A stretch of 64,000 bases of DNA. It comes from Alkaliphilus serpentinus. GTDB taxonomy: Bacteria > Bacillota > Clostridia > Peptostreptococcales > Natronincolaceae. Numbering within the stretch: position 1 is the stretch's first letter; every line of letters starts with the position of its first letter. Position numbers and translations under genes: made by a program. Below are positions 18,241 through 56,087 of the stretch, in pieces. The notes under the pieces are model-generated. The model ran no database searches, was not told the origin of the DNA, and worked only from the letters and a program-made list of their open reading frames with translations. The DNA is taken from contig NZ_WBZB01000014.1 of NCBI RefSeq assembly GCF_009017255.1, positions 1 to 64,000 on the forward strand. The letters are read 5' to 3'.

Positions 18241-18807
18241 TTGAAGAAGGAATTATGGATAATAATAGCAATACTGATGATTGCAGCTACATTTATATTT
18301 GGTACGACAATGGCCTATTTCACTGGTGATGCACCAATTGATGATACTCCTTTTACCTTTGGAACCTTAAATCTTGAAGCCACCAACAATAGCCAGGTGG
18401 GTGGAGAATGGATACCCGTACCAGGAGATAACGTCAAGGTGGCTGAGTGGTCATTTACTAATACTGGTACAAAGGAAGCCTATGTAAGGGCAACAATAGA
18501 GCTTCAATTGATGAACTCAGGGGAAGAAATTCAGATTAATGAGAATTCTTTCTCGTGGAGTTTGATGAGTCAGGATTGGAAAGAAGAGAAAGATAAAGAT
18601 AGTGGAGTTACATATTACTATTATACAGAGGTCATAGAACCAGATGAAACAGTAGAACTAAAATTACAGCTTGTATTAAATCAGATAAATGGAAGCATAA
18701 TGGGTGGGGAATTTCAAGTAGATATAGAGGCTTTTGCAATACAGACATCAAATCATGCAGCATATTATAAGTGGGAAACTGAAATATACGGCAGACCTGC
18801 TCAATAA
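18241..18807 (+). CDS. TasA/camelysin-type fibre protein (short form)
   Basis: 188-residue precursor with a SipW-style signal (KKELW, hydrophobic core, TMAYFTGDA). It is followed by the FTFGTLNLEA strand and a jelly-roll-like beta domain (EWSFTNTGTKEAYVRATIEL), as in the TasA/CalY family. TTG at 18241 is well spaced from GGAGGTGA; an upstream TTG overlaps the site. It is separated from sipW by only 39 bp. The first c-di-GMP-I riboswitch begins within about 10 bp of its stop, so this gene can be expressed independently of the downstream fibre genes. Confidence 0.82.
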   Translation: MKKELWIIIAILMIAATFIFGTTMAYFTGDAPIDDTPFTFGTLNLEATNNSQVGGEWIPVPGDNVKVAEWSFTNTGTKEAYVRATIELQLMNSGEEIQINENSFSWSLMSQDWKEEKDKDSGVTYYYYTEVIEPDETVELKLQLVLNQINGSIMGGEFQVDIEAFAIQTSNHAAYYKWETEIYGRPAQ

Positions 18808-18814
18808 TATAAAA

Positions 18815-18883
18815 TAGGCAAACCTGTTGAAAAACAGGGACGCAAAGCTATAGGGCCTTTCATTTGAGTGGTAGCCTAGCCGC
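18815..18883 (+). ncRNA. c-di-GMP-I (GEMM) riboswitch, copy 1
   Basis: The conserved core of the GEMM-I class is plain: GGCAAACC, a P2 hairpin CCTGTT-GAAA-AACAGG with its GAAA tetraloop, the invariant linker GGGACGCAAAGC, then TAGGGCC, the P3 arm and GGTAGCC closing with AGCC of P1. It lies in the gap between two TasA-like genes and ends 13 nt before the ribosome binding site of the next, so control of translation initiation is the simplest reading. No terminator hairpin with a U-run is visible. Confidence 0.93.
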
Positions 18884-18907
18884 AAATTTAAAAATGGAGG
18901 TGTGTAT

Positions 18908-20053: not shown

Positions 20054-20064
20054 ATCATAAAGAA

Positions 20065-20139
20065 GGGGCAAACCATTGGAAACAATGGGACGCAAAGCCA
20101 TAGGGCCTTTTAGCTTCAGCTGAATGGCAGCCGGTTGCC
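20065..20139 (+). ncRNA. c-di-GMP-I (GEMM) riboswitch, copy 2
   Basis: Second GEMM-I aptamer with closed P1 (GGCAA / TTGCC), P2 CCATTG-GAAA-CAATGG, invariant GGGACGCAAAGCC, TAGGGCC, a P3 arm and GGCAGCC. It starts 11 bp after the stop of the long TasA-like gene and lies 40 bp before the next one. P1 is followed by TTTT, so ligand-stabilised P1 could act as a weak terminator; the ribosome binding site is about 27 nt downstream. Confidence 0.94.
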
Positions 20140-20179
20140 TTTTAATAAAAAATAAAACAATAAACGGAGGGGTAAAGAA

Positions 20180-44066: not shown

Positions 44067-44100
44067 ATAAAAAAAACATGAAAAGGAGCCTTTTCATGTT
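44067..44100 (-). terminator. TPP-riboswitch-controlled terminator
   Basis: Minus-strand stem AACATGAAAAGG / CCTTTTCATGTT with a 2-nt centre and eight T after it, placed between the TPP aptamer and thiT; premature termination when TPP is bound. Confidence 0.9.
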
Positions 44101-44104
44101 TATA

Positions 44105-44190
44105 TCATGTTAGCTTCCCTACGCAGGCATTAACCTACAGGTTCAAAGGGTCGGACATGGTCCTCTCAGCACAAGGCACCCCTAGCGATA
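44105..44190 (-). ncRNA. TPP (THI-element) riboswitch
   Basis: On the minus strand the class signature is complete: AGGGGTGCC, GCTGAGAGG, ACCCTTTGAACCTG and the 3' part GGTTAATGCCTGCGTAGGGAAGC. It precedes the terminator at 44067-44100 and thiT, so excess TPP should stop thiT transcription. Confidence 0.97.
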
Positions 44191-44442
44191 AATATTGCTT
44201 TATTATATTATAGCATAATTATTGTAAATATAATACTATAGTATAAAAAAAGTCCCTAATTCTTTGGCGGTTAAGGTCTATTAGAGGAAGATTATACCCA
44301 CAACATTTATCAAAAAGATCATTTTTGTTTTATGTTATCCATGGTATATTAAAAACAAGTATAAATATATAGGGTTAAGGGAAAAAATCCATATATAAGA
44401 GAGTAGTAGAAGGGTATTAATTATATATCAGGAGGTGCTTAA

Positions 44443-54941: not shown

Positions 54942-55109
54942 ATGGCATCAAAAAATCATAGAGGTAAAACATTATGGAAGCTTCCTTCTAGAGGTAGAGG
55001 AACCTGTCCATTATGTAATAGAACCAGGATTAAATTATTATATGAAATTGTTACCGAAGATGGTAGCATGGAAAAGGTATGTAAGGAATGTAGTAAGAGA
55101 AAAGCATAA
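54942..55109 (+). CDS. 55-aa zinc-ribbon protein
   Basis: Small basic protein with two CxxC knuckles (CPLC at 22-25, CKEC at 47-50) in a treble-clef or ribbon arrangement and a Lys/Arg-rich N-terminus (ASKNHRGKTLWKLPSRGRG). No family recognised; nucleic-acid or ribosome binding is plausible. It starts 5 bp after the DNA-binding gene and has no clear ribosome binding site of its own, so it is probably translationally coupled. A strong terminator follows. Confidence 0.72.
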   Translation: MASKNHRGKTLWKLPSRGRGTCPLCNRTRIKLLYEIVTEDGSMEKVCKECSKRKA

Positions 55110-55118
55110 AATGTTTAA

Positions 55119-55148
55119 AGGGGCTCAAATAAGCCCCTGTTTTATTTT
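55119..55148 (+). terminator. Intrinsic terminator
   Basis: AGGGGCT / AGCCCCT stem with a CAAATA loop and TGTTTTATTTTA tail. It insulates the following selenoprotein gene. Confidence 0.88.
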
Positions 55149-55217
55149 ATTGGAAACCTTTTTTATTAAATGATTATTATATATTAAGATCAATATCCAT
55201 ATTGGAGGAAATAAAAA

Positions 55218-55466
55218 ATGGACCCAATAAATGAAACCTGCCAGATAATTAAAGATAAAGGTTATAAAGGTATCACCATTGAAGCTTCAACTGGGAATAA
55301 CTGCTGAGGTACCTACATCACTCCAGTTTTAGTGATGGAGGTACCTTCGGAGAAGGACAATTATTATTTCTACAGTATAAATCCAATAGGAATTTATGTA
55401 GATAAGAGAATAGGCTACTCTAGTGAGTTACTATGGATTTTGCTTAAGGATTTTTTAAATGAATAA
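55218..55466 (+). CDS. Selenoprotein with CU motif (HesB/IscA-like small protein), UGA read as selenocysteine
   Basis: 82-residue frame with one in-frame TGA (55305-55307, residue 30) and a TAA end. GGAGGA lies 8 nt before ATG. The product reads GITIEASTGNNC-U-GTYITPVLVMEVPSEK, then NYYFYSINPIGIYVDKRIGYSSELLWILLKDFLNE; Cys29-Sec30-Gly31 sits at the position of the CxG loop in HesB/IscA-like folds. Coding flavour continues without break through the TGA, and a bacterial SECIS hairpin starts right after it. I recall a clostridial 'CC/Se motif' seleno/Cys protein group of this kind but cannot confirm membership. Redox or iron-sulfur handling is inferred. Confidence 0.8.
55308..55345 (+). promoter_or_regulatory. 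Bacterial SECIS element
   Basis: Directly after the UGA: 7-bp stem GGTACCT / AGGTACC, one A-G mismatch, 7-bp stem CATCACT / AGTGATG, and an 8-nt apical loop CCAGUUUU. The loop G-U lies at positions 22-23 counting the U of UGA as 1, close to the G23-U24 of E. coli fdhF. SelB binding is inferred. Confidence 0.85.
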
Positions 55467-55516
55467 AGGAATATTTTCCATGAGTAGGATACTTATAAAC
55501 TGGTAAATATAATTTT

Positions 55517-55617
55517 GTAGGGTACGTACCCGGTGGGACTAGGATTTTGTGTGGGTAGCTTTTTAAGATGCTCTGTGTAAATCGAAGGTGCCATCACAAT
55601 ACGTACCCTACTGATTT
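55517..55617 (+). ncRNA. Unassigned structured element
   Basis: Outer 11-12-bp stem GTAGGGTACGT / ACGTACCCTAC (55517-55527 and 55601-55611), inner pairing TTGTG / CACAA, and a T-rich end (TTTTTT 55615-55620), just before a DUF421 gene. The left arm also holds the self-palindrome GGGTACGTACCC. It may be an orphan riboswitch or leader RNA, or a short MITE. It matches no riboswitch class I know. Confidence 0.5.
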
Positions 55618-55638
55618 TTTATAAAGGAATGATTTTCT

Positions 55639-56087
55639 ATGATTATAAGCTTTAATACAGATTTGGTATGGAAGTCGTTACTTTTAGTAGCTTCTGGAAT
55701 GTTTTTACTTAGGGTTTCAGGAAGAAAATCCATTTCACAGATGACAATAGCTCAAACAATCATCATGATCTCAATAGGATCCATTATTATTCAACCAATA
55801 ATTGAAAAGAGTATAACCAGAACAGTTGTTGCAGCTACAATCTTTATACTATTCTTAATCCTTGTAGAATATTTACAAATGAAATTTAATTTCTTTGAAA
55901 ATCTTTTGATGGGGAAGGCCAGAGTTGTAATTCAAGATGGACAACTGGTTCCAGAAAATATGCGTAAAATGCGGTTTAGGTAGATCTAACAATCAGAAAG
56001 GGCTGGGATAAACCCTATAGCTCTCCAAGCCAACAGCTTTCTGAAGTTTATGATCAATCAAGGGATGTTATGAATGCAAGGGTATAG
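55639..56087 (+). pseudogene. DUF421 (YetF-like) membrane protein, frameshifted
   Basis: The first 114 codons (to 55983) encode the N-terminal part typical of DUF421: three helices, GRKSISQMTIAQTIIMISIGSIIIQP, and KARVVIQDGQLVPENMRKMRF. Family members continue for about 100 more residues with a soluble domain starting VDDL. Here translation stops at TAG after RFR, whereas the +2 frame continues VDLTIRKGWDKPYSS to 56087. The C-terminal domain is therefore lost or fragmented. No ribosome binding site better than AAAGGA. Confidence 0.6.

Follow-up and report, generated by a model that had tools for sequence, protein, structure and literature searches.

When an open reading frame is interrupted by an in-frame UGA, it has to be asked whether the codon ends a short peptide or is read as selenocysteine (Sec), and this question is raised by positions 55218-55466 on the forward strand of the 64,000-nucleotide stretch of Alkaliphilus serpentinus DNA analysed here (the window). 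The layout of the locus comprises a ribosome-binding-site-like GGAGGA (55204-55209, forward strand) located 8 nt 5' of the ATG at 55218, 28 more codons, the UGA as codon 30 (55305-55307, forward strand), 52 open codons and a TAA at 55464-55466, that is, 82 codons plus the stop. Translated with UGA as Sec, the product reads MDPINETCQIIKDKGYKGITIEASTGNNCUGTYITPVLVMEVPSEKDNYYFYSINPIGIYVDKRIGYSSELLWILLKDFLNE, with a C29-U30 pair and with no cysteine after residue 30. The original prediction had proposed just such a single 82-residue frame, with a coding downstream half closed by a proper TAA and hidden from standard gene calling, and all of this is borne out by direct reading and translation: the last 52 codons align in frame with relatives, and the gene is missing from the ordinary list of open reading frames of at least 60 codons. 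On its own the open frame is weak evidence, as the local base composition gives a run of 52 open codons a chance of about 1%; it is the alignment of both UGA flanks in one frame with relatives that places the frame beyond chance.

A protein search of 60 genomes, the source genome included, gave a match in 15, and a profile search of 20 genomes of the source's taxonomic family gave a match in 14; Alkaliphilus transvaalensis, an uncultured Alkaliphilus, A. peptidifermentans and A. pronyensis are among the genomes with matches, and a contig scan returned 11 named loci. In the source genome the gene at 55218 is the sole copy found. All 17 homologous loci apart from it carry Sec or Cys in the motif, in the form of C-U (12 loci), CxxU (one) or Cys-Cys (four), with UGA in 13 of them, and the recurrence of the same in-frame UGA in other genomes makes a sequencing error at 55305 unlikely. 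By all tests made, the source cell would also be able to decode UGA. Its genome holds the complete Sec machinery, with tRNA-Sec (selC) at 72.7 bits against a gathering score of 47, selA at 628.9 against a cut-off of 267.9, selB at 378.9 against 242.25 and selD, which has one in-frame UGA of its own, at 408 against 125; selA, selB and selD lie on one contig, within about 6 kb. A classical HesB-like gene elsewhere in the same genome (G000:C78:50043-50294, L112) has one in-frame UGA and reads UGGP. Three findings had been named beforehand as fatal to the original prediction, namely a genome devoid of selA, selB, selC and selD, the lack of any homologue with Cys or Sec aligned to residue 30, and a sequencing error at 55305-55307, and none of them came true. 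Judged from its sequence, 55218-55466 is with high probability a real selenoprotein gene; beyond the gene, the conserved UGA and the machinery, all computed here, we infer that the UGA is actually decoded. The joint claim that the locus is a decoded selenoprotein of the CC/Se family with an IscA/HesB-like fold is given a probability of about 0.88.

With regard to the family, the 55218 protein is matched over residues 11-80 by NF041239 (NCBIfam "CC/Se motif family (seleno)protein") with 31.5 bits (E 1.4e-7), below the curated cut-off of 40 bits, and it shares ancestry with members and carries its Cys/Sec pair where theirs is conserved. No match was found in Pfam at E up to 1, nor in plasmid and phage collections at E up to 0.01. 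Sequence comparison marks the protein as a divergent relative of NF041239 and not as a member by the curated rule; the earlier guess of a CC/Se-type small protein stands as regards the sequence family and falls short at its cut-off. The family is common, with matches at E up to 1e-5 in 89 of 398 genomes of the phylum. In a 96-row tree the protein falls inside a clade of nine C-U rows (support 98/93), all from the source's taxonomic family, and constitutes its most divergent member, with the longest end branch (1.25). Scanned singly, five of the other eight rows pass the cut-off of 40 bits (L021 (as L094), L023 (as L095), L025, L027 and L028), and L022, L030 (as L096) and L031 (as L097) lie below it. 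The identity of the 55218 protein to 16 aligned relatives is at most 35%; it lacks the PSVxxGKP core and retains the C-U pair as well as P43, which is invariant in the alignment.

The likeness to NF041239 resides in the sequence over residues 11-80, the place of the motif and the small size, whereas the differences, apart from the score, lie in the absence of the C-terminal strands and in the order of the pair, since Sec comes second here (C-U) and, by inspection, first in U-first members (U-A, U-C). In Table 1 of PMC13188914 the entry for the NF041239 family is a hypothetical protein of Moorella thermoacetica, a prediction with one Sec and the motif CxxU. This is the sole paper naming NF041239 that was found in the open literature searched, and the accessible parts of PMC1794560, PMC2398784, PMC5029168 and PMC12013277 do not mention the CC/Se family by name. 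A vicinal Cys-Sec pair is also shared with SaoL, SaoC and KCU-star, the other selenoprotein families given with a CU motif in Table 1 of PMC13188914, and it is by that listing, not by sequence, that these are set apart as families. What the gene at 55218 adds to the known but uncharacterised CC/Se family is a new C-U variant, a divergent one whose fold is predicted to be IscA-like.

As for this fold, the AlphaFold2 models of the 55218 protein and of the full-length relative L098 both have a mean pLDDT of 89.0, and for both the top Foldseek row is IscA, at weak E values (0.02 and 0.004, respectively). Under a structure aligner for which a Z under 8 may reflect just a common arrangement, the 55218 model aligns to IscA with Z 5.3 (rmsd 3.0, 72 aligned) and to SufA with Z 5.1, its IscA-like rows spanning 5.3 to 3.3, ahead of a double-stranded-RNA-binding domain that comes first among the unrelated rows at 2.9; L098 aligns to IscA with Z 8.5 (rmsd 3.2, 89 aligned), with IscA-like rows down to 4.8 and the first unrelated one at 3.4. 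The modest Z values are backed by profile comparison with 13 HesB-like proteins, which gives a probability of 96.6 (E 6.9e-10) for 22 family rows and of 89.6 (E 1.9e-6) for a 12-row alignment headed by the 55218 protein; no PDB sequence was matched in a profile search at E up to 1. The predicted models point to an IscA/HesB-like fold of a helix, four strands and a helix, the 55218 model ending before the last strands of the IscA-like fold. The original prediction of a HesB/IscA-like protein therefore holds for the predicted fold and not for the classical HesB-like selenoprotein, which the genome has elsewhere. In comparison with the HesB-like selenoprotein TIGR01911 and Pfam Fe-S_biosyn (IscA, SufA, HesB), the Sec/Cys lies in or beside the HesB Sec position (the two are aligned in one profile comparison and two residues apart in another). 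By profile, however, the relationship is a distant one, and the protein has neither the C-terminal cysteines nor a Pfam match nor the UxGP motif given for TIGR01911 in Table 1 of PMC13188914, reading CUGTYITP instead.

A further question is whether the UGA is accompanied by a SECIS element. A candidate hairpin extends from the UGA onwards (55306-55347, forward strand) with 9 + 7 base pairs and an 8-nt loop, CCAGUUUU, and its energy of -25.9 kcal/mol corresponds to z -4.8 against dinucleotide shuffles; compared with synonymous recodings, the gene's hairpin scores -23.1 against -10.2 +/- 3.5 (z -3.74), with 0 of 500 recodings as low. The bSECIS model, as laid out in the accessible part of PMC13188914, calls for a loop of 3-9 nt, a stem of 4-16 bp, an energy of at most -7.5 kcal/mol, a G in the first two loop positions and a distance of 16-37 nt from the UGA, and is failed by a subset of selenoprotein genes. 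Measured against the rules given there, the hairpin conforms in loop length, upper stem and energy and breaks two others, as a G is missing from the first two positions of its apical loop and 15 nt separate this loop from the UGA. Of the SECIS originally placed directly after the UGA, the stable hairpin is present and the agreement with the model is incomplete. An alternative fold in the family's register satisfies the G and spacing rules, with a 10-nt loop and a weak energy of -6.2 kcal/mol. An Rfam search of 55100-55700 returned nothing near a gathering score.

The relatives give a mixed picture. The same recoding test on 13 of them yields -2.9 for L025, -2.1 for L030, -1.9 for L037, -1.6 for L023 and -1.0 to +0.9 for the other nine, so that the hairpin energy of most does not stand out, which counts against the SECIS reading. 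A test of the best uninterrupted stem under synonymous codons gave P 0.17 for the 55218 gene against a flawed null, and was set aside because the codon frequencies had been pooled from the family itself, which carries the SECIS bias. With near-copies removed beforehand, a family-wide stem is seen at a fixed distance after the UGA, lying mostly in the P-[SAT]-V codons and showing substitutions in both partners of pairs. The paired share of cells amounts to 0.75 in 36 U-first rows, 0.76 in 15 C-U rows (55218 included, the innermost and outermost pairs each pairing in just 6 of the 15) and 1.00 in 6 U-U rows, of which one has a three-base shift, against 0.29-0.54 when the register is slid. As one part of a wider reading of the family taken up below, the SECIS-like hairpin of the 55218 gene would have moved to a new register, and this shift may have released the PSVxxGKP codons to drift.

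From its surroundings, the 55218 gene looks like a single-gene unit, since a terminator-like hairpin with a T-rich tail (55119-55148, hairpin 55119-55138, forward strand) separates it from the preceding gene and is followed by a weak promoter-like match at 55151-55180. The former is a consensus match, one being found against a mean of 0.3 in shuffles; promoter-like matches number two against a mean of 4.2 in shuffles, hence are no evidence. Both here and in A. pronyensis, the C-U gene is flanked by a 372-aa gene upstream (43% identity) and by plsY downstream (57%), with sensor-type genes in between that are weakly alike (21% over 278 residues), and part of the 372-aa gene also lies near the A. 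peptidifermentans copy (33%). Two downstream regulatory genes are common to L094 and L095, and to these only. No operon partner shared by the compared C-U clade loci was found, and thus function is not readable from context. On the downstream side, a long hairpin with perfect 12-bp ends (GTAGGGTACGTA / TACGTACCCTAC) followed by a T-run occupies 55517-55611 (-39.3 kcal/mol, z -4.5); it occurs in one copy in the genome and could be an odd terminator or another RNA. The neighbouring DUF421/YetF-like gene at 55639-55983 ends after 114 codons and looks disrupted, with a PF04239 match confined to the initial 33 of that model's 129 positions (23.5 bits, the cut-off being 23.6) and another frame open beyond the stop. 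Across the whole window, an Rfam search found two c-di-GMP-I riboswitches and one TPP riboswitch (18807-18887, 20057-20142 and 44099-44193) and no other matches.

Within the family at large, the pair appears in several forms. The distinct family stretches found number 98, or 97 once a HesB row is left out; they are an uneven sample and include one fragment. Of the 97, 22 carry U-C, 20 CxxU, 18 C-U, 17 C-C, 11 U-A, 8 U-U and one something else. Counted back by inspection from the conserved Pro, Sec is at a distance of seven residues in most U-first members and of six in the C-U clade, so its position is shifted by one within the pair. In the tree, C-C rows are interspersed with C-U rows, from which it follows that Sec and Cys have been exchanged for one another. 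Tandem CC/Se genes, one Cys-Cys and one Cys-Sec and sisters in the tree, occur at L098:5672-6261 in a Thermoanaerobacteraceae MAG.

The Sec-Sec form is encoded by an in-frame TGATGA at the pair. Within the same phylum, 11 genomes carry it at 12 loci (L121-L128, L164, L167, L168 and L175; eight found first, four more later), 8 of 22 genomes having it in one search and 2 of 4 in another; the eight Sec-Sec rows in the tree form one clade (99/96). The second UGA is followed in 12/12 loci by a seven-pair stem, G-U allowed, which occurs in eight different sequences, one of them shifted by three bases, and which covaries. An aldehyde:ferredoxin oxidoreductase gene lies just upstream in 9 of the 12 loci (in L123 a distant one, 30% identity), a ThiS-like gene is present in 8 and a [FeFe]-hydrogenase-like gene lies downstream in 5, the names being those of Pfam and NCBIfam for L125. 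Such neighbours were not found within 3 kb on each side of L121 and L122 or within 1.5 kb of L175, and the surroundings of L164, L167 and L168 were read over 1.5 kb only. These genes mostly stand beside aldehyde:ferredoxin oxidoreductase and a ThiS-like sulfur carrier, and this placement suggests that the role of the CC/Se family may be to handle sulfur or selenium on behalf of cofactors or redox enzymes. In another sister branch, GCSSUG/GCSTUG (L099, L103, L104, L130 and L132), the gene lies 12-54 bp downstream of one from the sodium:dicarboxylate symporter family at all five fetched loci and is itself followed by the gene of a PLP-dependent enzyme in three (Pfam names from L099 alone), which may stand for cystine uptake and cysteine synthase, respectively. 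Both contexts would fit, rather than prove, the handling of sulfur or selenium.

Two explanations would deny the 55218 locus a working selenoprotein. In one of them the UGA is a true stop, so that 55218-55307 forms a small peptide gene and the remainder is chance or a separate frame, and it draws on the facts that UGA stops by default, that the hairpin is not a textbook SECIS and that such a frame length stays open, if rarely, by chance. Relatives from several genera nevertheless match the downstream half in that very frame, and Cys-Cys takes the place of the stop in 4 of the 17 homologous loci; by these homologues the explanation appears already largely refuted, and we regard it as extremely improbable. 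Alternatively, the gene could be a decaying copy, descended from a working CC/Se selenoprotein gene and no longer needed, in which the UGA mostly ends a 29-residue stub. Its divergence, with the longest branch of the clade, and the loss of the PSVxxGKP core make relaxed selection possible, and a non-canonical SECIS and the truncated DUF421-like gene next to it point the same way. Decay is at odds, however, with the intact start, ribosome-binding-like site, length and final stop, with the retention of P43 and of the C-U pair, with a hairpin far more stable than synonymous recodings, with a confident AlphaFold2 fold and with the gene being the sole copy found in the genome, and we consider it quite improbable.

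Under the preferred reading of a decoded selenoprotein, SelB with Sec-tRNA-Sec would read the UGA at 55305 of this free-standing gene as selenocysteine, and the hairpin just downstream would assist the insertion. The product would be an 82-residue IscA/HesB-like protein within the clade of C-U proteins of Alkaliphilus relatives, a divergent CC/Se branch, in which the C-terminal cysteines of A-type carriers are gone and a vicinal Cys-Sec pair is left in or near the turn of the first IscA/HesB cysteine. Cys29-Sec30 could then cycle between selenol/thiol and a reversible selenenyl-sulfide, and the pair might reduce or relay small sulfur or selenium species, or else hold a thiophilic (soft) metal. 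The relationship and the fold similarity were computed here, and from there onwards the entire biochemical role is what we infer; taken alone, the redox/sulfur role is put forward tentatively. A different role for the same protein would be that of an A-type Fe-S carrier (IscA/HesB proper) with Sec in place of a cluster ligand, as the fold and profile similarity to IscA, SufA and HesB-like proteins might suggest, together with the Fe-S_biosyn matches that 6 of the 22 family rows give when E up to 1 is allowed (the best reaching 24.4 bits, with the cut-off at 26.3). The C-terminal cysteine ligands of IscA form a CxC. The 55218 protein, by contrast, has no cysteine after residue 30 and thus no such ligands, lies outside the Fe-S_biosyn cut-off with no Pfam match at E up to 1, and comes from a genome with a separate HesB-like selenoprotein gene, all of which makes a carrier role unlikely.

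What the locus means can be considered for the gene itself and for its family. Gene callers stopping at UGA would miss it, and as the curated family model also scores it below cut-off, the 55218 selenoprotein would probably be left unannotated. The IscA-like fold offers a structural reading of a family for which Table 1 of PMC13188914, a 2026 review, has no more than the label hypothetical protein. For the family we somewhat favour a reading in which CC/Se proteins are an IscA-fold platform whose active pair comes naturally in the four forms Cys-Cys, Sec-Cys, Cys-Sec (as at 55218) and Sec-Sec, the 55218 hairpin having changed register and the Sec-Sec branch having two adjacent UGA codons decoded in a row, seemingly with one SECIS. 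One paper reportedly concerns tandem UGA codons in a viral gene. The accessible part of PMC7539508 describes algal PDI_e as the first selenoprotein with two consecutive Sec; in the open literature searched, this algal protein was the sole selenoprotein case and no report of adjacent Sec-Sec in bacteria was found, and the motif is absent from the motif column of Table 1 of PMC13188914, where some entries have no motif. If the adjacent UGA codons of the tandem genes are decoded, bacteria would offer an instance of Sec being inserted twice in succession. Since a single small fold occurs naturally with Cys-Cys, Sec-Cys, Cys-Sec and Sec-Sec, the reason for placing Sec at one or the other position becomes directly testable.
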